Part shown: positions 749-45,002 of the stretch, piece by piece
Position numbering within the stretch: position 1 is the stretch's first letter
How the letters are laid out: every line of letters starts with the position of its first letter
Origin: Scatophagus argus
Lineage: Eukaryota > Chordata > Actinopteri > Scatophagidae
Assembly (NCBI RefSeq): GCF_020382885.2
Contig: NC_058511.1
Location: 6,975,501 to 7,039,500, forward strand
Length of the DNA: 64,000 nt
Direction: 5' to 3'
The notes under the pieces: model-generated
Told to the model about the DNA's origin: nothing
Seen by the model: the letters and a program-made list of their open reading frames with translations, nothing else
The model's database searches: none
Program-made: the position numbers and the translations under genes

Positions 749-3700
749 TTAAGCAGGCATGTAAGGGGGAGGTGGCTCCTTCTCTGGCATCTTCATTGCC
801 ATCTCGTAAGTGGGCAGGATGTACTGGAGAAGAAAGAGAAAAAACAAAGTTGCTGTACAAAAGAGTGGACATTTGATCGAAAACGGATGTTTCTGAGCCA
901 GTGCAGGTTGCGACGTTATTTTCTTTATTGATTAATCTGGTGATTAATTTCTCAATTAATTGTTAGGTTTATGAACTGTCAGGAAATAGTAAAACATTTC
1001 CCAGTGCTCAAACCAACAAATATCCACTTCATTGTCATAGAATAATAAGCAATAACCAAAAAGACCAAAACAACTTGGATTTGTTTCAACTTCTCAAATG
1101 TGATGGCATGTTGGTTTTATTAGTCTTTTATGATAATAAACTGAATATATTTTGGCTTTTGGTGGTCAGTTGGTCAAAAGTTCATCTGAATGTGAATCTT
1201 GGACACCAAATAATCAAATAATTAATTAACTGACAAATAAGTGGTTGATTAATCACTCATGAAAATACTGTTACTTTTGCTTTTGCCACAAAAGGATATT
1301 CTAAGGAAAGGATTTCTAATTTTACTGTAATGGTTTTAAAGATGCATTTTCAGATTGTCACTGTGGGGATGAGACACCACCTGCTGGCTGAACCTCAATA
1401 TTACACATTACTGCATTTGATAGTGTCAAGTGTGTTTTTTGTGACAGTAAATACTGAGTGTCTCAGTCAATGTGAATACCTGGGGCGGGGTCTCAAAGGC
1501 AGGGTAGACGGCAATCTCTGGCATGTTCCTGTTGTTGATGTACTTGTAGCAGTTCCACACACAGTTGATCAAGTAGGCCTGCAAAGTAAATATAAGACAG
1601 CTTGGGCTGTAACTTTTAGTGTATCCGCAGACAGGACAAAAATATACGTTTTCTCAAAGTACTCTTCTTCTCAAAGTGCTCTTCTTTTGCTTTAGAGTAA
1701 CATAAATTAACCAACACATGGAATAAACCAGGTTTAACTGAAAACAACCACTGATTTCACCTTGAGGATGATGAGGAAGGCAAAGAAGATCAGCACAAAG
1801 AGCAGCAGGCAGCTGGAGTCCAGAGAGAGGAGGTTATCCTTGTAGGGGAAATCCGGCTAAGGAGGAAAAGAACACACAACGTCAGATAACCCCTCGTTAT
1901 ATGTATTTCAACTCACACACCACCACTGACACCATGCAATGGAAAGAAAAAGCTGAAGACTTGTGACTGCGGACTGACCAGCTGGTCCAGGTAGTCCTTG
2001 ATCCTTGGTAGGTAGGTGAGAGAACTGATGGCCACCAGGCAGCTCAGAGCAAAGTCAAAGAGCTGGTAGCAGAAAAATGGGATGAGCCAGCCGTCACGAT
2101 GCTGAGGAAAACAGGAGGACATAAAGTCATGTTATGAACAAACTCATCCAGGGGGCAGATCCTGTTTGAGTCCATTGTAAACAAAGACCATTTTGCTTCT
2201 TTATTAACCGTATCTAAACACACTCGTCTTACGTTAACTTTCTTATGTATCTGTATTCAGTTCTACAAACTCTACAGATGATGATGCATTTACAGCCTGA
2301 GCAGCAACAAGAAACACTATACTTTTTATTGTTTTAGAGTCTATCATTAGTGTTCCAAATTCTAACCTTGGTTTTCCTAGTTTAAATGTCTAATTAAAGT
2401 TTTCCTGGATTGAAGACATTTTTTCCTACTGCTCAGACTGTGACTGTATCATCAGATGTGGCTTGGGCTAAATGAAAGGAGTCCGCCTACAGGGACACGG
2501 AGTGCTGACTCTCTAATTGTCCACGCTAGCATGTCTTACTGTAACAAAGATTCACAAGAATCTCTACAGGCGCGTTTTTTCTGCCAAGGCCTTCTTTGAC
2601 AAAGATCTACTTCACTCTCAGTTCCCACATCATAGCAGAATACTGAATATCTGTGGTAAGTTATCACTGGGAAACTACAGTACTAACAGCAGCTGCGCTA
2701 CTACACTGTACTGGAAAAGGGAATCTACTACAGTTGTCTAGGATAGGGCTGAGCATTGTTTAAAAAACTGCAATACCAATACTAGTACCCTTAAACTGAT
2801 ACCTACAGAGTACTTCATTTGATACCTTGACAGGCTGGACTGCCAACTCTGTCAAATGCGACTACAACTGCATGGGTTGTAGCTGCTGTGGTAGAGAGCC
2901 AATCACATGTCAAATTACAACAGAAGAACGCTTGCTCTGATTGGCTGTGAGCCATAGAAATAGTCATTTTTTTCTAAATTTGGGTACAAAAGATTTTAAA
3001 TGCATGTATCATCTGACTGGACACATCGAGATTCTACTCGGTACTGGGCTATTTCAATCAACAACTTAAAAAGGCATTGAGTACTGATACCCAGCCCTAG
3101 TCTGGGAGCAGGAACTTTTATGGCTAAGGCATAACTCTGACACAGACTTTGTACCCAGGATGCAGGTGTAGATCAGATTTTCACTGTGCAGGCCACGTCA
3201 AAAGGCTATCAAACCTGACAATCTTGATGCAATCAGGCAGGCATGTGAGGAAAAGATGACAGGCAGTCATTTTTGAAAAGCCAGCTAAAATGAACTATGT
3301 GGAAAAAAACAGAAAAACAAACAAAACAAAACAGGGGAGGGTGTTTCCGTATTTCCGGTTAGGTCTTGCTTTCCTCTTGCTCTGACGCTATTATTATATA
3401 ACTTGAAAGCAATGCATTTCTGCAAAAACATTCTGGGATTACACATTTGCATAAGAAACCGTGTAAGTGCTTTGAATTGAGAGTATGCTGTCAAAATAGA
3501 ATTATGAAAAAGGCACCGTGCACACTTACAGTAATGGCTCCGTATACCATCATGGCACTGATAGTGAGCATCAGCAGAGAGATGGCAAATCCAACGCAAG
3601 CATTCTCTGCATGAGAAAAGGTGAGAATAAATAAAACTGATCAAATGCAGGAAAGATTTTTCACAACTTCAGTGCAGTTTTAGCCTTGATGTATGTATCA

Positions 3701-6272
3701 GTGAGTATGGGCACTGATTTATTCTCTTTGAAGCAGCAGTGATTTGCATACAGTATGTCTTTCCAGCTAATTCCGTTTTAAAAGGCCAGCTCTGGGGAGC
3801 ATTAAGCCTCTCCGTCTCGGATGTGGAGGGTTAGTCGAGCCACAATGAAACTCAGCCTGGGACAATTAAAAGGCCTGCCTTTCATATTCTCTTTTCTCTC
3901 TGTCAATCAGACTCTCGTTTTCGCAAACTGTTCCGTCTGTTCCACTGGAGAGGTAATGCTTGTCAGAGACCTGCTGCAGCAATGCAGTCCAGAGACATTT
4001 CTTTGTTATTCAGTAGCTCAGGCAGAACAACGTGTACATTGGTATTTTAAAAAGGACTGTTGTTTGCTCATCTTTAGGTGACTGAAAACAAAATCTGCAC
4101 TGGCTTAGGATCTGGTATTCATTATGAAAAGGAGCCTTTATGTTGGAGTAAATGAAAATACCCCTGTTATTGTGAGTGTAACGCTAACTGAAAAGACAAA
4201 CACTTGCATTAATCGAAACTAAAAGCCAGATATCATTTTCACATGTTCTCTCTTAATAACTTTGAAACACTGCCTGAAATGTGGAATGAATGCTGCCTGT
4301 AGAAGCTGCACTAACATGCCAACATTTGCTCTGAGGGCTGTGGACAACATCCACCACCCTCCTGTGTGTTGGTGTGAGCCTGCTGTGGGAAGGTCAACCC
4401 AGCATGGTTATTTCCACTCCTCTCCTGCTGAGTCACTGTTTCAGAAAAATAAAGAGGCCTTCACCAAGCCAACCAACAAAACAACCGCCAGCAAGAAAGA
4501 AAAGGCCTTCTGATGATCCTACCAGACCTGCCCTGCCACACTTAAATACAAACAATGAGAACCAACATAAGTCCTAGAGGAAATTCAATGGAGCAAACAC
4601 CAGCGGTGCTACGTCAATAACAACATTTTCAGACAACATGTACACAGCAAAGCAGTGTTCGGTTGTCTTCATGAGTTGTTTTCTTTTCAAATCAGTGGGG
4701 AGATGTGCCCCCTGAGGAAGCTGAATCATATGTTCAACGTAAGCAGAACAGAAGCTCACAGGTTCATGGAAAAAAAGCAACTTCACTTTAAATCCAGGGG
4801 AGCATCCAGGGAATATTTACTTATGTTTCACAGGGAAATTAAATGAACCACAATAACAGAATGTGTTTGAAGAGTAATAAACTCCAGAACATGATTAACA
4901 ATTTGTATGTTTGAATAATGCATTTGTTTTTTAAGCCTACAGCATTTCTTAATTTCTTACCAGACATTCGGTCCGAGGCAAAGTAATGGTCGATGACCTC
5001 ATACTGCAAGTCAATGGTGGGCACGTTTTCTGGGTGGGTCACAGCTACAGTCAGCAGGATGCCCATCAACAGGTTGACTACCTGGGGAGAGGAAAGACAA
5101 GAAAATTTGTTAAAAAGGATTCTAGCAGTATTTCTCAGCACTTTACGTACATTTTTTTTAATCTTTTTACGTAACTAACAATATTTTCCAATACAGTTTG
5201 GAATGTAATTTAGATTGAATTCCTGCCTAAAAGACTCTTTTGTGTTAGGATTTTAAAGGCCACCGTAAAAGCTAACTTAGATCACAGTGGAAACGGTGCT
5301 TTGGTGGAAACCGAAGAAATCGGTTCGTGCGTTTTATTTGTCAAATTATGTCCAACTGCCAAAAACTGGGAAGACTTCGAAATTCGACCAAAACCAGGAA
5401 CATCAGCTGTTTGATGAAACGAGAGCGGATTAACTGTACAGCTGCTTGAGAGTACTGCATGGGACAAAATGTGCAGAGGGCAATGATGTTAGCAATGAGC
5501 TAATGTTAGCAAACAGTTCGCTGCTTGAGTGTTGCCTATGAAATAGTCTCTTCATTTCAGCTACCAATACAATATAAATTACCTTAAACAACACAAGTTA
5601 GGCGGGTTCCTTTGTAGCAACTTATGTAACTGCGGAATAGTCCTTCAAAGTCAAGCCTGCTGTGATTTGACAAGCGTCACATTAACAAGTCTGAGGAATT
5701 AGATAGCTTGCGCTAGCTAATGTGCTATATAACGTTAAGCCGAGACAAAATGTCACACATTTTAAAGCCTCAGATAATAAACGGGTGTTGGTAACTTATA
5801 GCCACTCGTTACCTGATTTTCTAACCATACTTGCTAGGTTGGGCGAGTTTTATCGAACAAAACTCTTTGCTAATCAATACCGACATGATGGCAGGCTATT
5901 GCTAACACTAGCATTCTGATGTTAACTCGGCATCTAAAGGCTGATCGAAAATACCCATAATATCTAGGTGATAGCGGGGAAAGCTCACAACAATCATATT
6001 CACGACATTTTCAGAAAAACCGTTAACGCTGTCTGGTTGACATACATTTGATGGTTAACTTGATACTTAAACAAACTTAACACATTGGATTACCAGTGCT
6101 TGCTAATGCTAGCTTGACAACAGCCATCAACCATTTCACGTACCATGTACCATGTTCCCAGGATGATGGTCCCCGTCCGGACATGGCAACATCCGCAGCA
6201 CCTGGTGGTGTACAATCTGTTTCGACTATGCTTAAAATGATGCATGTCCTCCACAAGCGTAGGAAGAAACAT
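749..6272 (-). CDS. laptm4a: Lysosomal-associated transmembrane protein 4A (LAPTM4A), 7 coding exons
   Basis: This is a four-pass late-endosome/lysosome membrane protein of the LAPTM family, known from mammals to interact with Nedd4-type ligases and to affect small-molecule transport and glycolipid synthesis. Exons (minus strand): 6272/6245-6144, 5081-4961, 3606-3530, 2101-1979, 1856-1761, 1578-1480 and 823-749. All junctions are GT-AG and in phase. Seen directly: an N-terminal [20 protein letters not shown] block, four hydrophobic segments, the [14 protein letters not shown] and [20 protein letters not shown] blocks, and a tail with PTYEM and a PPPPYMPA end (PY-type motifs). The ATG at 6245 gives 230 residues, close to the 233 of human LAPTM4A. 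The first ATG at 6272 adds nine residues but has a weak Kozak context, so the start is unsettled. The gene lies next to the syndecan gene on the same strand, as in tetrapods. Confidence 0.95.
900..1262. repeat. Degraded hAT-type interspersed repeat
   Basis: An AT-rich stretch between laptm4a coding exons 6 and 7 has the look of a very common fish repeat: ATTGATTAATC motifs at one end, a centre resembling GTCAGAAAATAGT and CTTCTCAAATGTGA, and ATTAATTAACTGAC-like motifs at the other end. The termini are too decayed for an exact boundary. The call rests on recalled family appearance and was not checked against a repeat library. Confidence 0.5.
2744..3099. mobile_element. Non-autonomous hAT-like element with 8-bp target site duplication
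   Basis: A 356-bp element lies in laptm4a between coding exons 3 and 4. It begins TAGGGCTG and ends in the inverted form CAGCCCTA, allowing one extra or missing base inside the termini. It is flanked by near-identical 8-bp repeats, GTCTAGGA at 2736-2743 and GTCTGGGA at 3100-3107 (7 of 8 match). Terminal inverted repeats plus an 8-bp duplication fit the hAT superfamily. No transposase frame is present. Confidence 0.7.
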
Positions 6273-7381: not shown

Positions 7382-7387
7382 TTTATT
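7382..7387 (-). terminator. Candidate poly(A) signal of the syndecan gene
   Basis: AATAAA on the minus strand lies about 175 bases beyond the syndecan stop codon. It gives a short 3' UTR. Other AT-rich hexamers nearby could be used instead. Confidence 0.45.
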
Positions 7388-7562: not shown

Positions 7563-10244
7563 TTAAACAACAACTTCCTTCCGTTTGCATTTGTGATAAT
7601 CTTCATCTGAAGCCCTCTGCTGGCCCAGAATGTATCCTCCATCACCATCTTTCCTCTCCCATTTGTGGATTAATACTGCTCCAAGTGCAGCTGCAAGTAT
7701 CAGTCCCGACACTCCTCCTGCAATCACGGCTGTAAATATAAACACAAATGACTGGGTTACAACACAAATTCACAGTGTGTCACTCTCTCATGTTCAGTGC
7801 ACCGTATTGCAAAGTACCTGTGAGGACTTCTTTTCTCTCCAATAAACTCTTGCTGTTTGCAACAACAATGAGTCTTGATGTGCTGTCTTTTGCAGGAGAG
7901 TGTGTACTGTGAAAGGTCAGGACCGAAGAACCCTTAAGACAGAAGAAATTGTGTAACTTTGTTTGCCATTCTGTCATCTACATTATAAGGTGAAGACACA
8001 GCAAGACTCATGAAAACAAGACATATGTCATACAGGGAAAGTATTCTCAGTTCCGCCCCCTTCGTTTGCAGGTAATATTCTGACATTTTTGGAGTTTTTC
8101 ATTTCACCAGGTGAGTCTGCAAAAAGAGAGCAAAGAGAAAAAAAGAGATGCAACACAAACATTGGGTAAAGGTAGAGAGGATCATCATCATTTTATGGTC
8201 ATTTGTTTCGATACTCAGCATTACCTAGTTCTGACCAATCCCCTGAACCAGAACTTTCCAAGTCATCTCCTGATCCCTCCAAGTCTTCAGGATGGCCAAT
8301 AAACTAATTTCATGGAGAGAAGGGATGATGATATATACAGATGCAGACCACTACTGAATAACAGCACTTTCATACTGTTTTCTGTCTTATTATCAGACAT
8401 ATGAAAACAGACAAGAGGTGCACGGAGCCTGTAAAGGTACTTTCCTTAAGAGGGCAATAAAGAAATGAATTATATTCCCAGATACAAAGTCCCACTGAAG
8501 TAACAAGTGACTGACAAACCCATAATGACACAAGTGTCCATACTGTTATCACCAGCAAGGTGCAGCGAGTAGAGAATACAGCTCGAATTATCTGGTATTA
8601 TCACTCCACCCTTTTGGCGAAGCAGTAAATGTAAAGGAACACAGAATCTTTTCTTAGCAGTTTGGATGCAACAATTCCTGCGTTTAGCGTCTACAGTTTC
8701 AGTGTTTGAACAGAACTGCAGCAGCTTAACACGAAGTTATGAAACAGAGTAGCTGACAAATATGGTTTTACTGCCAGCTTTAAAGCCTACAGTGGGTGAA
8801 TATTTAATGGAACGACTGGATGGACAGAGGTGGAGGAATTAAAAACATTTGTTTTGCAAAATGGAATACTGCTGATAAGTCAAAAGGAGGAACTAAACAG
8901 TCATACTCCCTGCCAAAAGATCAAATATGCGTTTGGTATTTCCTGAATCAGGAATATCATGTTGCACCCGTATTATCTGTGCTGCCCAGCTGTACACTCT
9001 AACAATGTTTACTGCTTCAATCAGTCTATTAGACAGTACTAAAGCTCAACAGGATGCAATAAATTCGATGTTTAATTTCTAATTGATCCCAATGGACTTA
9101 AACATTAGTTCTAGCTTTAACAAGTGTAGCAACAAAGATTTAAGCAGTTACTTTTGCACTAAAGAGCCTGAGGCTTATTACCAGCTATAACTAAGATTCT
9201 ACCTCTTTGTGAGAAATGCTTTGCTTGGCTTGTTTTTCCCAGTTTATGCATGGGTTTCCTCTTGCAGTTCACAGACATGAATGCAAAGTGTGAATGCTTT
9301 CTATGTATGTTGGGTGCACTGCATGTTGAATTTAGCACCTCGAGGCCTGGATTAGCAGGAAGAGGATGAAAATGAATTGACAGGAAAAAAAAATCATCAC
9401 CAATTTTGATGGGTCAATAATTTTTTTCAGTTATTTGTTGAGTAAAAACATCAAATATTCTGTGATTCCAGCTTTTACAATGTGAGGATTTGCTTTAAAT
9501 CGATACAAGTTGAATATCTGTGGTTTTTGCATTGTGGGCACATTTGAAGACATGACCTTAGGCTGTGATAAACTGTTATGTGAACTCAGTTATTGACTTT
9601 TATTATAATTATTGAAAATGACTTTTCCTTTAAATTGAGAATTTCTTTTAAATTTTTGCAAAATAAAATATACAATAGGAACCGAGCCATTCTGCGTAAC
9701 GAGCACTTGTTCTTTGATACTTCAAGTAAATGCAGCTGGCAATTCTTTATGTACTTTGACTGCAAAACTTTAATAATGAAATACATAATAATGACATATA
9801 TTTAATGGTGGCACTTTTAAATGCCTATAAAAGAGGCATGTTATTAGTTTGCTGCACTTTAATGACCTAAATAATATCAACTAAAACCCTAAACCATTAG
9901 GTGATTTCAGTAAGAGCTTAATTCCTGTTAAGAGCAAGTTGCCATTATTGAACTAATATACAAAATCAAATTAAAATGTTAGCCTACAAATTCAACTATT
10001 AATCAAGACTAATGAAGGATTCAAATTTCTAGCGAAAAACACAAGCCACAAGGAACAACCAAGTCGCAGAAATGCACACACCCTGACATTCTTTTACTGT
10101 ACTATGACTCGGCTAACTTCCGGAAGTGAGACAGGTGAGTTTAACGAAAATGCAGGTCTAACACTGAAAATGACTTACCGACATTTTAACTGGTTGTAAT
10201 AACCCCAGAGCTAAAAACAAAGAAGATGTGAAAAATATCCTCAT
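7563..10244 (-). CDS. sdc1: Syndecan, probable syndecan-1 orthologue with diverged cytoplasmic tail, 5 exons
   Basis: Syndecans are single-pass heparan-sulfate proteoglycans that act as co-receptors for growth factors and matrix. Exons (minus strand): 10244-10179, 8303-8225, 8116-8034, 7932-7818 and 7729-7563. The chain is 510 nt, 169 residues, with every junction in phase. Seen in order: signal peptide (1-22, MRIFFTSSLFLALGLLQP); an acidic Ser-Gly cluster, HPEDLEGSGDDLESSGSGDW, with candidate glycosaminoglycan serines 33, 40 and 42; a short spacer; a juxtamembrane LLERKEVL; the membrane segment AVIAGGVSG..., which keeps the GxxxG dimer motif; and a short tail. Human SDC1, as I recall it, has PEDQDGSGDD and LLDRKEVLGGVIAGG at the same places. 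The position between laptm4a and pum2 matches human SDC1. Oddities: about half the mammalian length, an altered C1 region, and a C-terminus KEVVV where syndecans end EFYA. Certain as a syndecan; the sdc1 assignment rests on synteny and motifs. Confidence 0.88.
9375..9500. repeat. Fragment of hAT-type interspersed repeat
   Basis: The bases include TTGATGGGTCAATAATTTTTTT and a stretch resembling ATTCCAGCTTTTACAATGTGAGG. These look like the middle and end of the same fish repeat family seen at 900-1262 and 13375-13651. No intact termini are present. Confidence 0.45.
10116..10127. promoter_or_regulatory. Palindromic ETS-type site ACTTCCGGAAGT
   Basis: A perfect 12-base palindrome carries two opposed GGAA cores, a consensus ETS-factor site. 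It lies about 50 bases inside intron 1 of the syndecan gene, close to its promoter. Function is inferred from sequence only. Confidence 0.4.
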
Positions 10245-10759
10245 GTTTCAGCTTATTTCGTCTTCTTCACAGGAACCAGCAGGTGTTTTGACCGATCTTC
10301 GAGCCTCTGCCGGGCTAACGAAACCCCGCCCAGCGGTGAAGCAGGTATTACGACAGGTATGTACGGAAGACTTCTGGAAAAAAAAATCATATTGAAATAC
10401 TTTTAAGTCGGAGTTTACGGAGGTTACGGTTAAAACTACTCTTATGACTCCCGGCTTCTTTCAATGTTTATCCAATTACAGAAGGAGTACGTCAGTGGTG
10501 GGGAAAAAGGGCTCCTATTTAACACTGCTGTGGATGCTATGTTCATTTTGCCATAAAATATTTTAATGTTTAAAGTTTTCTTTTCCAAAAGTTTGGGGGA
10601 GTACATGTTTTGTTAAGTCAGTTTTTAGTGATGGTTATAATTACGTCCTTTTTAAAAAGACTTTCAAATTCTAACACACTGGGTGACCTTTTCAGTGACG
10701 CGTTCAAAAATAAAAAAACAAAATCAAAACATGACTAAAAACCACAGCAATTCTGGTCA

Positions 10760-13173: not shown

Positions 13174-24383
<11,210 letters not shown>

Positions 24384-26789: not shown

Positions 26790-27380
26790 ATGGCATACAT
26801 ACGCAAGAAACTTGTCGTGGTGGGAGACGGCGCGTGTGGGAAGACGTGTCTACTGATTCTCTTCAGCAAAGACGAGTTTCCTGAGGTCTATGTCCCGACT
26901 GTGTTTGAGACATATGTGGCGGACATAGAAGTGGACAACAAGCAAGTCCAGCTGGCTTTGTGGGACACAGCTGGGCAGGAGGACTACGACCGGCTTCGCC
27001 CCCTCTCCTATCCGGACACTAATGTCATTCTTATGTGCTTCTCGGTGGACAGCCCGGACTCGTTGGAAAACATCCCTGAAAAGTGGGTCCCTGAAGTCAA
27101 ACACTTTTGTCCAGATGTACCCATTATATTAGTGGCCAACAAGAAAGATCTTCGCAACGACGAGAACGTAAAGAACGAATTGTCCAGGCTGAAGCTAGAG
27201 CCAGTGAAAACTGAGGAAGGTCGGGCCATGGCCATGCGCATTGGCGCATATGACTATTTGGAGTGTTCTGCCAAAACCAAGGAGGGGATCTGGGAGGTCT
27301 TCGAAACTGCAACACGGGCAGCCTTACAAAAAAACAACACGCCATTAGGAAGCTGTCACAGATGCTGTGTTTTGATGTGA
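26790..27380 (+). CDS. rhob: Rho-family GTPase RhoB, single exon, 196 residues
   Basis: RhoB is a small GTPase of endosomes and plasma membrane that controls actin and receptor trafficking. The 196-residue length equals human RhoB, and the gene is intronless like RHOB. Seen: P-loop GDGACGKT (12-19), switch [16 protein letters not shown], switch [26 protein letters not shown], and ECSAKTKEG. Cysteines 189, 192 and 193 keep the RhoB spacing for palmitoylation and prenylation. Oddities: residue 41 is Thr instead of Asn, and the C-terminus is CVLM instead of CKVL. An upstream in-frame ATG at 26748 would add 14 residues, but the family start MA-IRKK favours 26790. The gene is divergent from pum2, as in human. 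Confidence 0.95.
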
Positions 27381-30651: not shown

Positions 30652-30910
30652 GAAGGTCACATATTGTTTTGTTTAAATAATACAAGACACAAAGTGAGCA
30701 CAGTAGGATCAAAACAAACGGGAGTCTGCTGTGAGATAAAAAAGGATGAACAATTTGAAAAACAGAGACAATAACAAGAGACAAGCATCACGCATACAGA
30801 CAATGCTTGTTAGCATCCAGCTTTTTATTTTTTGGTAGAATAGTTTTACTGTTGTCTTAAGTGGTTACACAACAGACACAGTCAATACAAACACTATTAG
30901 CCATGTCCAG

Positions 30911-33900
30911 TTAGTTGAATTTGGCAACAAATGGCAAAGGAATGTCAATGTCCATCTGCTTGTCACCTACTCTCACAAATGGTTTGACATTTTTGCTTTT
31001 CTCTTTTAGTACCTTAATGACATTGTTGTGGAAAGCATTAAGACGTTTCACGGCTGAGTCAATCCAGGACTGGATGTCATACTGAAGCTGTACACTAGAC
31101 ACATCAGCCAACATGTTGTTAAGTTTAGCTCTTACAGCTTTTAGATATTCCATAACAATTCTGTGGACCTCTTCAACCTGTTTGACAACATCAGCCAGGA
31201 CATGGGAGTTGATAGCATCATGGTATATATCAGTCACAAAGGTGTAGAACCGCTCTGCATTCTGAGATTTTAGGATTTGGAGAAACTTCTCACTTTGGTC
31301 GATGGTAAACTGCATGAATGCAGAGAATTTGTTACGGATATCTTCCATCTGGATATTCCCCAGTTTCCTCACTGTGACAATCATCTGGTCCTGAATTTTC
31401 CTTAAAGCTACAGACAAGTCATCAAGAATTTCTCTACCACTGACAACATGGTTAGAGCCAGGAAGGGTGAATTCAATGGCTTTGAAATAATCAAGGACTG
31501 TTGAAAACACGGAGGCAAAGTATTCTGGAATCTTTTCAACAGCCTCCTCAGATACTTCTGCAACAAAAGCATTAAATTTCTGGTAGACCTCCAGCCCAGA
31601 CAGCCTTTGTTCATACCCAGGGATCTGGAACTTAGTCTCCCTCAGGAATTCAACAATGGCGTTAAAAACTATTTCAACTTTCTTTTGGTACTCTTTGAGG
31701 ATCAGAACAGTTTTATCTGTTACAGTGGTCATAATATTGGAAGGATTTACTGCTGCAAGGTTGTTAAAAGCTCTCCTGAACATCACTTTACCCTCCTCTC
31801 TAGCCCATTCAAAAGTACCCTCAAGTCTTCTAGCATGTCTGTAGATGGTGTTATATGTCCTGACAGCAGGATCAGACACCATTTCCATGACAGTGGGCAC
31901 ATGATCCTTCATTTGCAGCATCATCTCATATGGCATCTCCATATTCCAGGTTGTCTGAAGATTCAGCTGCTCAGAGTTCACCACAGACATCTTCACACCC
32001 AAGATATCAATGTCTGTTGTTGGCTCAGACTGTGGGAAAATATAAACATTAAACAAAATTTTTACTAAAACTTAAATACACCATTTACACGAAACCACAT
32101 TCAAAGTAGGCAAATAAGCAGATAAATAAGAAAAGTTATCTTACCGGGTAGCGACCATAGAGTCTTGCTTTCACTTGTGCTGGGCGCTTGGTCTGCATCT
32201 GAAGTGCGAGGAGTCCTGCAGATGGAGTGGACATAGAGACAACAAGGCCTTCCTCTGGATTTCCAGTAATCCTCTGGTAGATTTCCATAGTCATGTCAGG
32301 CAGATTGATTTTTGCTGAATTGGTGATGGAGGTATCCACATTTTCATAACTTAGGATGATGGTGCTGTCATGGTTTCCCTCTAGCAGTGTTGAGTGTTTT
32401 ACAGACAGGGCAGAAACCATTTTAAATCCATCAGCCGTGTTCAAGTTGGTGTTACCCTGAATCCTTCCAGTCAGAAACTCAAATTCAGAGGATGAAGAAG
32501 CATCAAGTTTGACAATGAAGCTCTCCTGATTGAGGATGCTGGCATCAGTTTTGAGTGTGATCATTGCTGATTTCATGGAGAACTCATAGGTCAGATCACC
32601 CATTACGGGGATCTTGATGTTTGTAATTTTGGGCAGAGTGATTTTTGGAAGAGTGAGCTTTCTGAGGGCAGATGGAATGTGCAGAGCAGGCACTGTGATG
32701 AGACTGAAGTCAGGCAGGGGAATGGTGAATGTGGACACCTCAATATTCATCACTGGAACGTGGTAGGCAGGAACTGTGATGGTTTTGGGCAGGTCAATGC
32801 TATATTTTTCATACTCTGCCTTTGCTTTGTCATAAGATGAAGCCAGCATGGCAGCAGCCTTATCCTTGCCAATGAGCACTTTCTTGTGCAGAGTCTTGAA
32901 ATTGGTATTAATGACACTGATTAGTGGATCCATGTTAATGTCAATGGTCATCATCTCAGGGTTCTTCATGTACTTCACTTTGGAGCTCATGTCAAATGTC
33001 TGCTGAGTTGTGGTCAGGAGATAGCTCAGGCCAGCGTCTTCCCACAATGAGTAGTCTTCTATACTTTGCGTCTTGATACCAACAAATGGCAAAGTTATTT
33101 CAGGAATGGTGATGCGCTCTTTCAGTACCTCCAGATTTGCTTCTCCATTAATTTGGGAAAATATGTTAATTTCGCTGTCACCATTATCTATTGTAAAGTA
33201 ATGGGAGTATTTGTATTGGTTGAATCTAGCCAGACCTGTCCAGCTAGCTTGCTGAGCTTCAGACTTCAGGGAAAAGAAGATGTCATTCTGGAGATCCATC
33301 TTTCCAGACAAACTGAACGGAAAGGCAATCTTGGCATTCCCCTTGTTTTTGGTGTCAAACACAAGGTCTCTAGGTGTGACTGAAGCAACCACAGAGCTTG
33401 AGAGAGTTCCTTCAACCTTCCCAACTAGCTCTGCATTGTGAGAGGCAGAGAAATCAATTTTCAGGTCTTCAGCCTTAGCCTGGAGCTTGACCTCTGCTAT
33501 GCTACCCCTCATGATAGGGGTTTCTGTCTCAACCTTGGCTTCAAATATTATGTGGCGGAAAATGCAAATATCTGCAACCACATTTTGGTTCATTTTGAAG
33601 TCTCTGCTGCCTGTTGCTCCAGTGAAAGTCACTTTGGCTGTGTGGAGATCCATCACCACCTCCATGTCACTCTTGTGGTTTGCCTCATCTGAAAGGTCCT
33701 GGAAAGCATATTTTCCTTTAGCCAGATTGTCAATAGTGAGACTTGCTGTGCCATCCACAACCTTAAAAATGGTCTTTTGTTTCAGGGATGTTTCACTGAA
33801 GATTTCGAGGGGTGGCATGTTAAGATTGTGTTTGTAGCCAGTCTCCACAGTGGAGGAAATTCCATTTTCAGTGGCAAAGAGTGCACTACTAACAAGCTCT

Positions 33901-36900
33901 GCAACATAGAGCTCAGTATTTACATTTGCAGTCGTTTCAGTAGAAGCTTGAGCTGACAGGCCATAGAGAGTCATTGTTCCCTTGTGGTCAAATGTAAAAC
34001 ATGACTGGTCAACTTTGATGTTCTCAGAAATGGACATGGGACTCATCTTGGGTGCAACAAAATGAGCACTGGCATCCACAGTAAAATCAAGGATCCTCAA
34101 AGTAGATGTAGCCTGTGAGTTGAGGTTCATTTTGAACTCTGGCGTGATTGATGTACTTGTGGTGTTCTCCAGATCAGCAGTGGTCCTGAGGTTGTAATGA
34201 GGTGAGATAATTCTGAACTCTCCATAGAGTTTTCCAAAACAGGGAACCTTGCTGATGTCTGCCATTTTCTCTTTCAATTCCATTGTGAATGTGTCATAGT
34301 CAAAAGATTTGATTTTCTGGATCATTCTCATAAAATAGTCGCTCATGTCATCAATTAGCTGTTTGAAGTCAAAGGAATACAGTTCATTCACAAACTCCTG
34401 GATGGGTACCATAACTCTTCTGAGCAAAGGCTGGATGTCAGTTGTCCTGAGAGCAGCAAATGCAGACTGAATCCTTTCCCTCACATGATACTGCTTCATG
34501 ATTTTAACAATTTCATCCATAATGGCTCCAATCATCTTCTCAACCTCATAGCTGGAGAGAATCTCCTCTGCTTTGGCATAAATTACGCTGAACTTGCTGT
34601 CAATGTTATGCTTCTTGATCCAAGCCATGACAGCCTCCTTTACTGATTTCAGCATTTTCACGACTTTGTCAGTTGGGAACTTTGCGGTCAGGTTGGTCAC
34701 ATAGTTTTCCATTGAATTAATGAACTTTCTCAGGTCTTGGACAAAAAGATTGAAATCAAAATTATCAACGATCTCCTTTAGTTCTGACACTTTGTTCTGA
34801 AACTTGGCACTGACCTCATACTTAGTGTTGATATCTTTCAACATCTCAATACTGTGATCCATCAGCCTCATCACTGTGGTCTTTACATTTTCAATAACTG
34901 CAGGCAGGTGCTCAATGAATGGGATCTGAATGAAGTGGCTATCACTGTTCTTGTCATATTTCACAAATCCAGAGATTGCATATTTTTCATTGGCTTCACT
35001 GAAGAGTGGGGCTGTGGCAGCACCCGACATCTCAATGCCTATTCTGTCTGCATTGTTATAGGCATTCATTTCCTGATCAAAAGTATGTTCGTTTACCTTG
35101 GATGTCATCTTCAGTGTGACACTTTGTTCTTGGAGGCTCAGCATGCTGCTGAACTTGTTGCCCATACTGGTCTTGATAGTGGGTCTGCCTTCCAGTTCAT
35201 GGGTGGTTGAGGCTCTGTACTCAAATGAATGGGTGAATTGCCGGGGTTCTGCTTTCAGGAGGAATTTGCTGTATAGTTCACCGCTCTGCTGTCCATACAG
35301 ATACACGGCACCATCTGAGTTGAAAATGGCATCAATGTTCAGAGTGAAGGGTGCAGCAACAGTTTTGACCGTGCTGTCCAGACGAAGATATGGGGAGTTA
35401 ATGTTGGCTGCATTGTTAAGCTTCATGTTCAGACCAGCAACCTCCATGTCAGTGGTATGCATCATGTGTGTTCCCAGGAGTTTGCCATTGGTATTGTACT
35501 TTGCAGACAAGACCATGTCAACAAACTTGACTTCATAAGTGTGCTTGAGCTCTTCCTCTGAGAAGACTCCCATCATTGTTCCAGTCAACTCCATGTTGTA
35601 AGGCTGTACCTTGAACTGGGCATCATTCACAAAGTTGACCTCCATGATCTTCAGGTCATTCTTCACAATGACTGAGGCAGTAAAACGTTCCATGTTAATG
35701 CTGATGTCATGCTTGTAAGAGTTACGCTCGTCAAGGACATTCTCAGTCTTGGATTGGACTGCAAAAGATCTCATTGTAAGGGACAGTGAGTTGGTGTTGT
35801 CGGTCCTCATTTCATTGAAAGATCCCACGATACTGTTGGAAAGAATCAAGCCATCTTCATTCAATTTCATGTTCATTCTGTTCCTGGTGTTGATGTCAAA
35901 GAAGTTGCCCTTAAATATGCCATTGAGAGACACTTCTGTGGTTGCCATCTTTCCCTCAACACTGAGCTCAGCTTTGTTCTCTTTAAGGGCTCCCTTGGTG
36001 GTGAGAGATACGGTAGCACCAGAGGTATCAAGTCCAGCGTGGAAAACATTCTCAAAGGTCACTGGACTATGCTGAGCAGTTGTTGTACAGCTAGTGGTCA
36101 GGCCATTCATGTTCAGGGCCAAAGTTGCCTTGTGAGAGGCTAGGCTTGAAAAGATGTTCAAGGAGGCATCAGCATTGATTTCCAAGCCAGAGGGGTTCAT
36201 GGAACCAGTGAGCAAAGAATAGGCACGGTTCTCTGTGTCATCAGCTTGATTCTCTATCCTGAGGCTGGCCTGTCCTTCAGAGGCAGAGAAGTCTATCTGG
36301 CTACGAAGCATTCGCTCATCAGCCTTGGTCACAGAGTCAGACTGGATGGTAATCTTGACATCCTTGTATTTCAGGCTCATTTTGGTGGTATGCTTGATGG
36401 GGTCACTGTTCATGTTGGTGTTTGACTCAATCATAAGCTCCTCATTTGCATATGATGCCTTGATCTTGTTTGAGACCTTCAGGATTTCAGAATTCACCCT
36501 CAGTGTGCTCTCCATTCTTGCTTCTTTCTTTGCTGGCTCAACAGAGAATGTGTGGAGATAGGTGGTGGTAGCAGCCATGGGTCCAACAGACACACTTCCG
36601 TCTGTGTTGATATCTCCGGAGAGCATGTTTGAGTCTAGGACAACCTGGGTAGTGACAGTCAGAGATGTCTCCAAACCCAGAGAAGAAGTGGCATACACAT
36701 TATATTTTCCTGTTGACATTACATTATCCGTGACTGCAATTGTTTCCTGCACATTAAAACCTGTGGTCATGAGCATGTGTTTCATGGAACCATCAATGCT
36801 GTATTGCATAGTTTTCTCTGCTGTGTCTGTGATTTTTGTAGCGCCTTTAAAAGAGACAGAACAGTAAAATATTAATTAGTATCACCTTTTGTGTTATTTC

Positions 36901-39900
36901 TCTTGAGTTAAACGATAAATATGTGATTTTTATAACTAAAGAAAATGAAAAGATTAAATTACCTTTAGTTGAGAAGGAGAGAAGCTCAATTGGACTCTCA
37001 GCCAGGATGCTGAACATGGCCATATAGCTAGGAGAATCTACAGTATTGTTACCAGCAGATGCTGTTGCCTCCCACTTATAATAATTGCTGTTGACCTTGG
37101 CAGACATTTCCATCATTCCCATCAGAGGAAGGGTGAGATCATATTCGGAGGGGATGGTAAAAGTGGGAATTTGGATCTCCTTTGAGGCAAACTCCATGCC
37201 CAGCTGAGGCATGGATATGCGTGGGGAGGCAACCACTGGAGGTATCCTTAGTTCCTGAGATGACTTGCCACCAAGAGGCAGAGGAATACTGATGGTGAAA
37301 CGGTCCTGATTGAACTGGTATCTGAATGTGCTCTCACTGGTAAAAGGATGAAAAGAGAGAGAACATTTGTTAAAACTGAAACAGACACATAAATGGTGAA
37401 TAAAAGTTGTTTTACTTTATCTGGGTAAAGCTGCAAATTTCTTGTCATCCATCCAAAAAACAATGATTACTCTTACATATGGTGTTTACTTACAGGTTCA
37501 TGAATAGATTTTCAGGCATGGAAGGCATTTCAACAGTTGCCATTTTGTTCTTCAGTGTCTCAACATAGGGAACATCCTTTGTGATCTTGTTCATCCACAT
37601 ATTGCTGGCCTGTTGGGGAAAAAAAACACCACATTTCTCATACTTTAGTCTGAAAGAACAACATATCAGAAGCTGCTGAACTTGTTAGTATTATATTATC
37701 TTTACCTCAGCTGCCTTGTTGAAGATATGACGCAGTTTCATGTCAGTCTTGACAACCTGCTGGTCCATGGCATCCTCTACAAACTGCCTAAGCCAGGCCT
37801 GGAGAGCTTCGGTGTAAGGCACCAGGATCTTAGTACTGGCATTCATGTTGGACATCAGCTGAACCTCAGCCTGGTCTTCACCTGATATACAAAGCCGGGC
37901 ATTTGGCATTTAGCATTTAGCATTTTACTTTTACATTTGAGACCATATTTGTACAAATGTCTGAAAAAAAAATTCTAAAGTCTGTTTTCACAAACAGACA
38001 TACCATATTTGAATGTGACTGCCTGAATGGAGGAGGTCTCTGGGAGCTTGACATCGCTTTTAATCTCCATGGTGAGTCCTTCAGCTTTGTTCATGGTAGC
38101 AGTAAGGCTGGCATCGGTCTTGAGTGAAGGGACTAATAGCTGAACCTGCAGCATGCCATCAGTCATTGCCTGAAGCCTGTGATTGATACAACAATAAGTC
38201 AGTGCTTGTATATCAGAAAAGCATAAAGACTGTTACATGTGTGAATTAGTAGCTTTAGTAGCTTTCAGTAAGATATTATTTATTGGCATTGTTTGTAAAC
38301 ACAGTCTGTGGCTGTGCTGACTCACTTGGCACGGCCAGTCAGAGAGAGCTGGGGTACATTCTTGTTGGTGATCTCTAAGGAAATGGATTTTCCTTTGGTG
38401 TTGCTGTCAGTCATGCCAACCTTAATGCCGGTTTCAACATCAAAGTCAGGTATCTCAATTTGGGTGGTGAAGACATTCCTGTTCCTGTTGTATTTCATGG
38501 TTGCTGTAGCTTCAGCAGGCTGAGCACCTGGAGCCACGAAGTTAGAAAGATATAATGTAATTATTAGTATGCTGTAAATATCGATGTATGCAACCCTTTA
38601 AACTGAAAAAGGAGGTTATGAGACATGGAAAAACTTTGTTTTTTATAAATAAGATGCTCATACCCTCAGCTCTTAGGGCCAACTTCAAAGAATCAACCTT
38701 CTGGCGACCATCCTTTCCTTCGCTGAGAAGCTTGTAGGCAATGGTAGCTGAGTACTCAGAGACCTCTTCAGAAGGCTCGATGTCCACAGAAAACCTAGGA
38801 TGAAAAGAACAAAGAGTAAGTCACTGATGATATTGCACTATGCAATCAGCGATAGCAAAATTGGCAAATTAATCACAGATTCTTCAAAAAACAACCTACT
38901 TAGTCTCTCCATTCAGGGGGAAGTAGGGAGCAGCAGTCTCGTCACCAGTGTCAGGAAGAATTGTTCTGGTGCAGTATTTGACTCCAGAGAAGAGAGGTCT
39001 GCAGTTCACTTCACCCTGTCTGTGTGGGATCTCTACAGCCTGACCAGCACCCACAACCAGCACTTTATTGCTATTTCAAAGAAAAAAAGGAAAAAAAACC
39101 CCACAGAATCAGTTTCTGTCTTTTAATAACTTTGTTGAGCAACGCAGTAATAACGATAATATGGCACTATGTGTTGAAACACTGTATCACTAACCTAAAA
39201 CAATCGAAAATCTACTGTCATCTACTGTTAAAATATTTTTGTTTTGTTTTGTTTTGTTTTTTGAGAAATATAATACATGAATGCATTTTGTGTTATTTGT
39301 TACCCGATACTGAAGAGTCTCGTGGTGCCCTGTGGGGCAGGGATGGAAAGCTTGACCTGGCTGTCCTCCATGGTGATCTTGGCATTGATTGCACTCTCAT
39401 GGTACATGTTGGTGTGCATCTCGACCATGGACGCAACAAATTCAGGGACATGGACTCCCATCTGTGTCACAAACTCAACTCCAACAGAGGGCATGAACAG
39501 CAGTTCCTTCTGTGAACAAAATACATATCACATAAAATTCAATTGGTTGCATTCAAAAATATAAATACAAATCACGATATAAATTGACACTGGCATCATC
39601 ACACAGCCACTGTTACAATGTCGAACTACAAAAACTATTATACTACCACTATTTATATTGGTTATTATTATTATTATCATTATTAAAGAACAACAACCTA
39701 ATAATAAAACTATAACTGACTTTTTCTGATAGAGTACTGATGATAGGTTGAGGAAATATATACCATTTTTGGAACCATGCGAAGACCTCCCTTTGCACCA
39801 GGGGTAAAGATGCCAGACAAAGCAAATTTCAGAGGCAAGCCAGATGCTGTTGGCATGATGAATTTGTTGTCCATGAAGATGTAATGAGCAAAGATCTCAT

Positions 39901-42900
39901 TCTTAGTGCTGGACATCAGGTTAGCCACAACCTGATAGAAAGAATCAACAGTCACTTTGAATTCTCTTGTGTTGTGGTAAAAAAAAAAAAAAAAAAACAG
40001 GAAAAAAAGAATAGTAATTTGTGGGACAAGCATTATATTAAATTTAAACAGGAGTGCTGAACAATACCTTGGAAGGAATGATCCTCATGAAAATATCTGC
40101 ATACATCAATGCGTTGTCAGCAATGGACCTCAGTTCGCTGCCCTTGATGTAGCCAAGCTCAGCTCCCATGATCCTCAGGTAGGCCATGGCTTCTGGGGAC
40201 TCCTGACTCTGCAGATCTTTAACCAGCTTGTTGAAGTTGCGAACGACTTCTCTCACAAGATTTTCGGGAACCTTAGGAAAAAGTTGCATTAGTTGTGTTG
40301 GTGTCAGAGGAAATGATACTATGAGTGTTTAACAGTATTAATGAAACACAAGATATACCTTCCGTCCTTCTGATTCTGGTGCAGCAAACCACATATTCAG
40401 TTCTGGTATCTTGTCCATAGTCCAGTACAGAGCTTTGGACAAAGTGTCAGGGAAAAACCCGTTCTTTCCAAACAAGGCATCAATTGTTGGCTCAAAGCCC
40501 TTTCCTTGCATGCCGACCTATTGGAAAAATGAAAGCGATGCAAAAACAGTTTTGGATTAGTATGTCAAAGTCTAAATCTGGGCCAACGAAATCTCTTACT
40601 AATGCTATTTAAAAATCAGTGACAGGTGGGATACTGTGGCAAATTTCTTGTAAATATAAAACCATAATTTGAATTAGTGGTGCAATATATCAATTTTACA
40701 TACCTCCCAAATATCCATGTTGAAACCAAAAGCTTTCAGGGTAGTTTCCAGCAAGACCTCCCTTGGCAACTGGCTACTGGGATCAAAAATGATGTTGCCC
40801 TGAACACTGGCCTGCATGTTGTTGTGTGCTACGCCCAGCTTGTAGTTGCGAGACTTTGTGGTGTAGTCATTGTGTGTGGCGATATCAGTGTCTTGCAGGA
40901 CATCCATGATCTTCTCACGTAGCCTGGGGTAATAATGAAACAATAAGCTGCATAGAAGTAGCTGGATTGTCAAATCAGTGCAGTATTTCCATGAAATAAA
41001 GCGTGATTTAAAGCATTAAAGTGCTCCATTCTTACCTCTGTGTCTCTGAATCAGTGGAAGAAATGATATTGTAGATGTGGGAGGTCACAAAGGACTTGAT
41101 CTGTGTGTTCTGCTCCTGTCTAAGCAGCTTCTTCACAATCTCAATGTCACTGTCCTGCGGATTTTTCATCAGCATCAGGTAAGCTGCCAGGCGTTTCTGC
41201 ACAGCACCCTTGGGGTACTGGCTAACCCTCTGAAGGTTAGAGCGAACCTGTATAGAAAAAAAACAGTAACTTGTTAACGAGTGAGGGAAGCTGTAGTATT
41301 TTGGGAAAGTCTATTCTATACAGCTAGTAAATTTGGATACTGTTCATGTGGGCATGGTTGTGTGTGTGTGTGTGAGTGTGTGTATGTGGGAGGGGTGGGT
41401 GGGGGGTGTTGGGGTCTGTTACCTCATCTGTCACTGACATGCGTCTGAAAGCCTGAATGGCTGCCATCTGCACAGACAGTGTGGTTGCAGGCTGTCTCAT
41501 GCACTTTAGTAGGGTGGTCTTTATAGCAGGGTTAGCAGCCTCCATTGCATCTCCCATGTTACCAATAACCTGGATGGAATAGCATGGACAATAAGTAAGA
41601 CCGTGGAACTGGAAGTTGCCACAAAAAAATGTACATTTATAATGTCACATCTGGTCACCTACCCTCAAGATCAGGAAGGTCTGATCTTTGTCCCCAGAGC
41701 AATCTGCACCCAGGAGAGAAGCCATGAACTCTGAGACAGCAGTGATCTCTGGGGTAACGCCCTCAGCCTGGTACAGTCTGGTAACAAAATTAGTATTTAG
41801 TGATGCACAACATACTCCAACTCCTCCTATTACACTCCTGAGCAAGATGTTCATCGGATTTAAATAAACATGATTTTTAGGTTTACTTACTTCCGGACTA
41901 TGTTACTCAGAGCATACATGATGGGTTTGCTCTGCTTGTACTCAGCCATTGCCAGCATGTCTTTTGCCATGAGGCGGGAGGGGTTAGCCAGCAGTCCCAT
42001 GGCATAGACAGTAGCATCAACCTCAAGAGCACCATCGGTAAAGGTCCTGAGATCCTTCAGCATGGCACTGGTGCACTCTGGGGTTCCGCACTGAATCAGA
42101 GCTTGCCAGGACAGAGGTGTGGACAACTCCATCATCTCAGCAACTGCAGATTCCAGGACCTCAATCTTCAGGCCACGCAGCTCAGACACCAGCTTGTGGA
42201 AGAGGCTAGCCCGCTCCTCGCGGTCTTCATGTGACAGAGTGCTCAGCTGCTTCAGTGTGGCGATGACAGCATCCTTGGTTTGCACTGGGGACTTGTCGTC
42301 AACAACATCCATGGACAAGTACTTGAAGCTGTCCTCATCTGCACAGAATTTTGTCACAAACAGTAAGTAAATGCAGTGAAGTCTGACACATTTGACATAC
42401 TGAGCATATTTTAATATTTACAAGCTAAGCTTAAGAGATGAAGTACTCACTGCGATCAAAGATTCTGTCATTGATCTTAGCAGTTTCCCTCAGGGTCACA
42501 GTCTGCTTCACCAATGTAGAGATCCCATATTCATTCCTATTTGCAAAGACAATGTGAGTAAGAAATACTTACTCTTGGTACACTTAGAAAGATGGACCAT
42601 TTAGGAGAACACAGTGTGCAAAATTCTGAAATGTTACAAATCAGTTATCAGTTATAAATATTATTTAGTGGATGCTTTGTTGTTTTAAAACTTACTGGTG
42701 GGAGAGGGGCAGAAAGATGTGTTTCTCTGCGCATACTCCACTGGTCATGTGCTTCTTCTGGTTGTCAAACTTATAATTGCAAGTCTGGGTGCTGCTAATC
42801 ATCTTGGACAGAGGGTAGTTCTGATGGTAGAAAGACATCAATGTTTTGTTTGAATATGAGGAAGAGCAAACTGCAGGAAAAACAGCATATTTGATGTTTT

Positions 42901-45002
42901 TTCTGTTTTCTGTAAGGAAATCTATCAGTTGATTCATACCTTGAAATGATATGATTCTAGTAAGAGGGTTTTTAAGACTTTGAGTTTCCAAATCCAACAT
43001 ACAATCTAATAAATCTTGCCTTTAGTTTGTTATGGTGACAGTGTAAGGTTGTTGCTTAATCTCCTACCATGCCAGTGATGAGGGCTAATGGACTGGTGTC
43101 CTGCCTGTGGGCAAAGAATGAGTCGCATTTGGAAAGATCCCTGTTGACAGTCACATCAGTGGCAATGTCCTGTCTGGTGTTGACGGTGAAGTCGGTGGGG
43201 CAAACTCCATGCACGGTGGGCTGAAAGTGATGGCATCATCATCATCAAAGTTGCAAGAGATGCAGTGGTAAACATGATTTTTGTACTTTAGCAATTTCCC
43301 AGAATCTGATTATCAAGTGATCTGAAAGATTGCGCCCCGTTATGAGAGCAGGTGATGCTTTATAGAAAGATAAACTTATCTAAGACTTTGACCTGTGAGA
43401 ACATGATGTTACAGCAGTGTATTTATCACCTCTGACTGGGGCAGCTTATCTCCTCATTGCGCAAGTTGTTTATCACAAATAGAATAAAGCTCTGCTGCTA
43501 GACTCTGGCCTGAATTGATCGGTGACCTCTCTAAATACTGATGAAACGAAAATAATACCAAAAAAACAGTCAGGAGAGCTACCATTTTTTTGTTGTTTTC
43601 CTCTTCCATTACTGGCACAAGGAGGGCAGAGACAATTCCCCTCTTGATGTTCAGGATGTTGACAGGCTCATCATCCTCAGGGTAGAGTTTGACAGAAGTC
43701 TGTTCTTCAACTGCGACCTTCAACAGGTTCCTGGTGATGTGGACATGACATTATTTACAACCTGCCATTTAGCCCATCCTTGTCAGTTATGTCCTGAACT
43801 TCAGCCACTTTTCTGATCATGCTGCCTTTAGTTTAAGTACTCAAGAATACAGATAAATACAAAATCTTTGCTGGAAACCAAACAAGGTGACTTACTTGGC
43901 CATGGCAGCTTTGAAAGCATGAGCTCCAGCAGCAGGAGAATACTCTGGGTTCCCGTATTCATCCACACTAGAAATCTCGGTCAAAGAGCAATCTGTTGTG
44001 CGGATAATGAAGCTACAGGTCTGGGGTACATCAACCTCAACCTGTGCAGCAGATAAATATTTTTTAGCGCTACTGTTTACTAGTTAGGGTCACAAAACTC
44101 TTGTATTTGCAGTAGCATTTGGGGCTATGAAACATACTCTGCAGGAGACTTTAGGGCCACTCTTTTGGTTAGTTGCTCCGTTCACGCCGTTAAAGGTCTC
44201 AGCTTCATAGTCGTACACAAACCGCCTGAAGTTCTTGAATCTTTTGGCCACTAAAAAGTATTTGAAACAAGATCTTATGTACACATATATGACTGACACT
44301 TTTTACAGAATGCCTTTTGATACTTAAAATGGAGTATTTAATACTTTACTGAAAGGTAAAACTCAGCAGGGATTCACGGTTGGAAAACACTTATTTTTGC
44401 ATATTTATCAAATTAAATCACATCTTAAAACAGTAATTTATAAATCAATGTTAAGATTAAAAAAAGCAACTCACGAAAGCAAGTGGAAGATTGTTCCATA
44501 GCATTTCCAACATCTTGCTCTGTAAAGAATGAGAGAAGTTGTTTGTTTGGTAGTTTGTTTGACATTTTAAAGCCACAAGTTGCTCCAAAACATAACTGAA
44601 AGCATTTAAATAATTATAACTAATAATAAGCAATAACAATTAATGAAATTGTTAAATCACACACACTCTGCATTTATGCAAGTATTTACACCATTATCCA
44701 TTAACCGTAAGCATTTAATCTTTATTTCTAGCTCAAAAATACTGCATTGTCAGTCATGAATAACAACTGATGTGTACACTAATCCAACTAGCATAATAAA
44801 TATATACTTACTTTACTTTATCAAAAATAGTGTATACTTTAGTTCCAAGCATGCATATAAAATAACAATTTCTAAGGTTTTGTAAACAAGAAATAAACTT
44901 TACAGCCTTAGATTGCATTAGCTTCCACATAAGAAAACAGTACTTACGGGCTAGTGTGTATGTGCCCAGCAGCAGCAAAAGGCAGAGCTTGGTACCCCCC
45001 AT
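30911..45002 (-). CDS. apob: Apolipoprotein B, copy 1 (complete, 26 exons, 3303 residues)
   Basis: ApoB is the non-exchangeable scaffold of secreted lipoproteins made in liver, intestine and yolk syncytium; its N-terminal vitellogenin-like domain is lipidated by MTP. Exons: 45002-44948, 44519-44475, 44250-44138, 44041-43896, 43730-43583, 43220-43068, 42820-42696, 42536-42451, 42338-41891, 41777-41663, 41569-41423, 41247-41036, 40923-40704, 40517-40359, 40271-40068, 39931-39764, 39509-39304, 39070-38900, 38794-38664, 38527-38326, 38176-38004, 37881-37706, 37609-37494, 37336-36963, 36844-32145, 32029-30911. They total 9912 nt, in phase. Signal peptide: [18 protein letters not shown]. Recognisable blocks: [41 protein letters not shown]-type [17 protein letters not shown]. 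It is about 1260 residues shorter than human apoB-100, with most of the central helical region missing and the C-terminal part fused. The paralogue suffix (zebrafish apoba, apobb.1, apobb.2) cannot be decided here. Confidence 0.95.
32145..36844 (-). other. apob: Large central exon of apob copy 1 (4700 nt, equivalent of human exon 26 fused to a later exon)
   Basis: This is one open exon, residues 1365-2931. It carries the beta-sheet blocks, a shortened helical block (34250-34960) and amphipathic strands rich in LPKITLPKI-type repeats. Its 3' end, ARLYGRYP, matches the end of a separate downstream exon in copy 2 (53682-53868), so intervening exons and introns have been lost. Confidence 0.85.
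41355..41395. repeat. (TG)n microsatellite
   Basis: An interrupted TG run lies in the apob copy 1 intron just downstream (minus strand) of the exon ending at 41423. Confidence 0.8.

Follow-up and report, generated by a model that had tools for sequence, protein, structure and literature searches.

A candidate syndecan-1 gene between laptm4a and pum2 in the teleost Scatophagus argus

The window, that is the whole stretch of DNA analyzed here, covers 64 kb of the Scatophagus argus genome (C19:6975501-7039500; whole genome 570.7 Mb). The genes of this region, the first three of which lie to the left of the window, follow each other in the order KCNS-type BTB gene, TPR gene, matrilin gene with one VWA, laptm4a, candidate gene, pum2, rhob and apoB-like. 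The candidate consists of five minus-strand exons running from window position 10244 to 7563, which we rebuilt from the raw sequence. The features are listed below by window position, with approximate ends for laptm4a and pum2.

749..6272, minus strand: laptm4a, neighbour (Pfam Mtp, 83.6 bits on the joined exons)
7382..7387, minus strand: AATAAA, putative polyadenylation signal, 175 bp past the candidate stop
7563..7729, minus strand: exon 5, GxxxG membrane segment and short tail to EVVV, stop (Pfam Syndecan, hydropathy)
7818..7932, minus strand: exon 4, remaining ectodomain and juxtamembrane block LLERKEVL, phase 1 out (spliced model, codon score)
8034..8116, minus strand: exon 3, short ectodomain exon with LPANEGGGTENTF, phase 1 in and 0 out, 3' end uncertain
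8225..8303, minus strand: exon 2, acidic cluster with three Ser-Gly sites (PEDLEGSGDDLESSGSGDW), phase 1 out (spliced model; same phases in the four other syndecans)
10179..10244, minus strand: exon 1, 22 codons comprising the start and the signal peptide, phase 0 out (spliced model, hydrophobic stretch)
10201..10501, no strand: CpG-rich block, putative promoter, at exon 1 and extending upstream of it (CpG count)
13174..24383, minus strand: pum2, neighbour (PDB Pumilio 2, 410 bits vs Pumilio 1, 378 bits)
26790..27380, plus strand: rhob, neighbour (PDB RhoB, 360 bits vs RhoA, 345 bits)

An earlier note on this DNA had named laptm4a and pum2 as the neighbours of the candidate, and both were confirmed by the Mtp and Pumilio scores given above. 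We take the Mtp-domain neighbour to be LAPTM4A and not 4B or 5, judging only from its likeness to the human sequences.

Joining the five exons gives a protein of 169 residues with no internal stop. The introns measure 1875, 108, 101 and 88 bp, all four have GT-AG ends and the junctions are in phases 0, 1, 0 and 1; the in-phase five-exon chain claimed in the earlier note holds in its coordinates, phases, splice dinucleotides and open frame. When splice sites were scored against a general consensus, the exon 1 donor (TCG/GTAAGT) reached the 99th percentile and two sites were weak: the exon 2 acceptor stood at the 63rd percentile among all AG dinucleotides of the strand, and the exon 3 donor at the 84th among all GT dinucleotides. 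The exon 3 donor used is slightly outscored by a rival at 8084 (6.0 vs 6.8), so that the 3' end of exon 3 is not fixed and a form of 152 residues is possible. Coding signal was measured with a codon model trained on the apoB-like exons of the window, the null being drawn from its open non-coding fragments. Of 20,000 null draws, 4 (a fraction of 0.00020) scored as high as the whole chain. For exons 2, 3, 4 and 5 the corresponding fractions were 0.048, 0.041, 0.024 and 0.000 (4,000 draws each), and the codon signal is absent from exon 1, where 0.73 of 4,000 null draws were as high. Six stretches of the window reach 12 or more CpG per 250 bp, and one of them lies at exon 1 of the candidate; the remaining five are found at the laptm4a start, at a pum2 exon, upstream of the first coding exon of pum2 (two blocks) and at rhob.

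The syndecan order described earlier (signal peptide, Ser-Gly cluster, LLERKEVL, GxxxG segment, short tail) was borne out by hydropathy, sequence and Pfam. The signal peptide (KD11 2.16 from residue 3) and the single membrane helix (KD19 2.30 from residue 117) are predicted by hydropathy only, and the helix sequence contains GxxxG. Near the N-terminus, Ser 33, 40 and 42 stand in acidic Ser-Gly sites that are putative points of glycosaminoglycan attachment. The candidate is a member of the syndecan family, PF01034 (Syndecan) matching residues 105-165 of the joined protein with 41.2 bits (E 1.6e-10; gathering cut-off 25.2 bits). A search of the whole genome with the same profile gave 11 places, corresponding to four canonical syndecans, the candidate and six neurexin-type places. 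The canonical syndecans (C17:11.508, C17:5.761, C9:11.585 and C3:27.921 Mb) score 75 to 99 bits per single exon. Exon 5 of the candidate alone scores 31.3 bits in this search; the neurexin-type places range between 28.9 and 32.0 bits, and three (32.0, 31.9 and 31.7) slightly exceed exon 5. Neurexins are large multi-domain proteins, and what they have in common with the candidate is a membrane segment matched by PF01034. All six of these weaker places are at different loci and end in KEYYV, which we take to be the neurexin type of ending, whereas the candidate has no such end. The neurexin-type matches, and central exons without a Pfam family match, would fit a chance chain of open stretches round a neurexin- or syndecan-like membrane exon, with no real gene present. 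We find this scarcely credible, since the 41.2 bits of the joined protein, the phases, the Ser-Gly cluster, the hydrophobic N-terminus and the position all agree, the codon null is rarely as high and KEYYV is lacking.

From their tails and juxtamembrane blocks, the four canonical syndecans were identified as sdc3 (C17:11.508 Mb), which has the tail LEEPKQATVTYQKPDKQEEFYA and an ILERKEVL block, two sdc2 genes, and sdc4, which has an EIYA tail. Intron phases read by eye are those of the candidate at all four junctions in sdc2a, sdc3 and sdc4, and at introns 1, 2 and 4 in sdc2b. The candidate is distinct from the sdc2, sdc3 and sdc4 genes of this genome, each of which is located elsewhere. Apart from these genes and the candidate, the 11 PF01034 places comprise only the six that end in KEYYV, so no second syndecan-1 was found by this search. 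The two syndecan-2 genes lie at C17:5.761 and C9:11.585 Mb, and the C9 copy has an altered V region (DLGDTKLTTTQYQKAPTK) and retains EFYA.

The candidate is a real gene whose tail departs from the syndecan family. According to passages of a 2006 paper, the C1 sequence RMKKKDEGSY is almost completely conserved across all syndecans (PMC1464127); in the candidate C1 is degenerate and reads KWERKDGDGGY, with one residue extra. In the V region (ILGQQRASDEDYHK) the leucine and the tyrosine that the same passages call conserved in syndecans (PMC1464127) are both retained. C2 is not kept: the candidate ends in EVVV, and the four other syndecans of the genome end in EFYA or EIYA, the latter noted for fish syndecan-4 in that paper (PMC1464127). 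Fish sdc3 is like the candidate in family, intron phases, RKEVL block and paralogous Pumilio and matrilin neighbours, but it retains a canonical C1, EEFYA, GPSGDFE and SSAAQLPQK. Likewise sdc2a, sdc2b and sdc4 share with the candidate the family, the intron phases and an LG after the start of the V region, but have TEVL in place of KEVL and EFYA or EIYA tails.

Tail motifs of this kind could have gone because selection had lapsed, the gene being a positional orthologue of syndecan-1 that was recently silenced or is on its way out. A degenerate C1, the change from EFYA to EVVV, a terminal branch with 6.4 changes per column in the tree described below and the two weak splice sites (acceptor of exon 2, donor of exon 3) all suit such a decay. 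However, all five exons are open and in phase, the CpG-rich block is retained at exon 1 and the codon score exceeds the null. We also simulated drift by substitutions only, starting from the end of fish sdc3 (66 codons) and going down to 43% identity, and 463 of 4,000 frames stayed open. This is a weak argument on its own, which would presumably gain weight if all 169 codons and indels were considered; it speaks weakly against long neutral drift and is compatible with recent decay. Taken with the other observations, we regard a decaying gene as improbable.

Passages of the 2006 paper give HS1BP, RHOB, PUM2, LAPTM4A, MATN3, WDR35 and, remotely, KCNS3 as the neighbours of SDC1, and place PUM1 beside SDC3 (PMC1464127). 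By these neighbours tetrapod SDC1 (CD138) has the same locus and gene order as the candidate; HS1BP and WDR35 were not seen in the neighbourhood of the candidate. A matn3-type matrilin lies 13 kb from the candidate, outside the window (coiled coil at C19:6969792), and beyond it to the left come the TPR gene and then the KCNS-type BTB gene. This matrilin was identified from its position and from one VWA, one EGF and a coiled coil, read in frames of at least 40 residues; mammalian MATN3 has four EGF exons, and one was read here. A Pumilio search of the genome matched pum2 in the window and one other locus, a gene at C17:11.470 Mb which is taken as pum1. The latter is part of a mirror locus of about 65 kb on C17, with the Pumilio gene at 11.470, sdc3 at 11.508 and a matrilin coiled coil at 11.534 Mb. 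One syndecan was thus found in either sister region: sdc3 stands at the Pumilio-matrilin locus of C17, and the candidate stands beside pum2 and the matn3-type matrilin. Syntenic position is the main argument for the candidate being the syndecan-1 orthologue, which is supported by its place between laptm4a and pum2, by the matn3-type matrilin and by the mirror sdc3 locus. The orthology proposed in the earlier note is thus supported, mainly by the separate sdc3, two sdc2 and sdc4 genes, by the matrilin 13 kb away and by the Pumilio and matrilin genes that flank sdc3.

By sequence alone the assignment of the candidate is weak. Like the candidate, tetrapod SDC1 has a short run from the signal peptide to PED.[DE]GSGDD followed by SGSG (human sequence) and an LL[DE]RKEVL block, and the candidate may keep a trace of the membrane-proximal glycosaminoglycan site. 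It differs from SDC1 in its length (169 vs 310 residues), with an exon 3 of 83 bp, in its degenerate C1, in EVVV for EFYA and in a membrane-proximal Ser that is Gly in the alignment. The motifs LLERKEVL and PEDLEGSGDD, put forward earlier as closer to SDC1 than to other syndecans, are indeed SDC1-like but nearly as SDC3-like, given ILERKEVL in fish sdc3 and DLEGSGDD in human SDC3. Full-length alignment scores fail to separate the candidate among SDC1-4. At the N-terminus SDC1 scores best (57 vs 53, 48 and 24), for the juxtamembrane block and helix the Smith-Waterman (SW) scores are 94 for SDC3, 91 for mouse SDC1 and 83 for human SDC1, and for the tail alone they are 55 for SDC2, 37 for SDC3 and 29 for both SDC1 and SDC4. 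In a tree of 10 rows, an analysis that the earlier note had proposed, the candidate joins SDC1 at 23%, and a branch with support 92/100 sets it apart, together with SDC1 and SDC3, from SDC2 and SDC4; by path distance SDC3 is nearest (6.38), then SDC1 (7.06). Placements of the candidate with SDC2, SDC3 or SDC4 were not rejected by the AU test (p-AU 0.30, 0.27 and 0.31).

The exon 3 sequence LPANEGGGTENTF ends 30 residues before the juxtamembrane block. In a register anchored on that block it aligns with the membrane-proximal LPAAEGSGEQDFTF of SDC1 (post hoc p 0.005 for human, 0.0024 for mouse), and the same test, also post hoc, gave p 0.16, 0.76 and 0.39 against SDC2, 3 and 4. The 30 residues that adjoin the block showed no likeness to SDC1 (p 0.89). 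We rate the match as modest because the test was post hoc and these next 30 residues are unlike SDC1. Possibly LPANEGGGTENTF is a degenerate copy of the membrane-proximal glycosaminoglycan site of SDC1, LPA.EGSG; if the alignment is right, the chain-bearing serine there is now glycine.

If the candidate were instead a copy of sdc3 or sdc2, inserted at the laptm4a-pum2 place after loss of the true sdc1, this would agree with a juxtamembrane and helix region nearest SDC3 (SW 94), a tail nearest SDC2 (SW 55) and SDC2 and SDC3 placements that the AU test leaves unrejected. Nevertheless the candidate sits between laptm4a and pum2, like SDC1, and it is no retrocopy because introns are present at the conserved phases. 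Moreover GPSGDFE and SSAAQLPQK of SDC3, which fish sdc3 has, are missing and an SDC1-like site may be present, and we judge such an insertion very improbable. In all, the candidate is with high probability a teleost syndecan-1 orthologue at the ancestral place (matn3, laptm4a, sdc1, pum2, rhob), shrunken and fast-evolving, and most likely still working as a small proteoglycan.

As such it would be transcribed and act as a small co-receptor that carries heparan sulfate and whose scaffold binding is altered. By glycanation, as many as three of the N-terminal serines would receive heparan sulfate chains able to catch growth factors and matrix, and the GxxxG helix would dimerise. The V region, with its conserved Leu and Tyr, and the C-terminal EVVV would link the protein to cytoplasmic scaffolds through PDZ binding, with partners that probably differ from those of EFYA-type syndecans. 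Class II PDZ ligands have hydrophobic residues at positions 0 and -2, and EVVV, being hydrophobic-x-hydrophobic, is therefore still a plausible PDZ ligand.

The earlier note had said that comparative work reported no syndecan-1 in fish, which is right for the 2006 paper: its passages state this absence, and take the adjoining PUM2 and LAPTM4A of Tetraodon as a specific loss of SDC1 (PMC1464127). A 2021 review repeats that syndecan-1 is absent from bony fishes, a 2024 study in carp measured syndecan-3 because it had no orthologue of CD138 to use and, in passages on the salmon B-cell surface proteome, CD138 was not identified (PMC6362898). A 2022 review states the contrary and, from BLAST searches with human proteins, ascribes CD138 to bony fish, with the locus unnamed in the passages concerned (PMC9141580). 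Among the matches listed in our literature search, whose scope was published reports, none reported a teleost sdc1 locus. A gene at an interval formerly read as empty makes the loss of fish syndecan-1 a testable question. It also provides a candidate marker of plasma cells and epithelia in fish, and a vertebrate syndecan in which the otherwise near-universal cytoplasmic end is changed. A bolder reading, to which we give somewhat less than even chances, is that teleosts never lost syndecan-1 but kept it in a miniature, rewired form, with the ectodomain sugars, dimerising helix and promoter retained and the EFYA/C1 code replaced by a new EVVV PDZ ligand, and that this may be the missing teleost CD138. 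Under that reading, similarity searches would have missed sdc1 owing to the small size and the divergence of its exons.

One more matrilin coiled coil was found at C15:19177808-19177897 and perhaps belongs to a second matn3 that stems from the fish duplication; the sole PF01034 match on C15 is neurexin-type and lies 1.3 Mb from it. To the right of rhob, the window contains two tandem apoB-like genes on the minus strand (about 30900-45000 and 52590-64000) with long lipoprotein frames, and Vitellogenin_N (Pfam) was found in pieces of the first. We take these lipoprotein genes to be apoB from position and sequence. To the left of the window there is a transposase-like fragment, presumably of Tc1/mariner type by its resemblance. 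Repeated frames on both strands at about C19:6950000-6962500, between the KCNS-type and TPR genes, resemble what we take to be zona pellucida (ZP) domain proteins.
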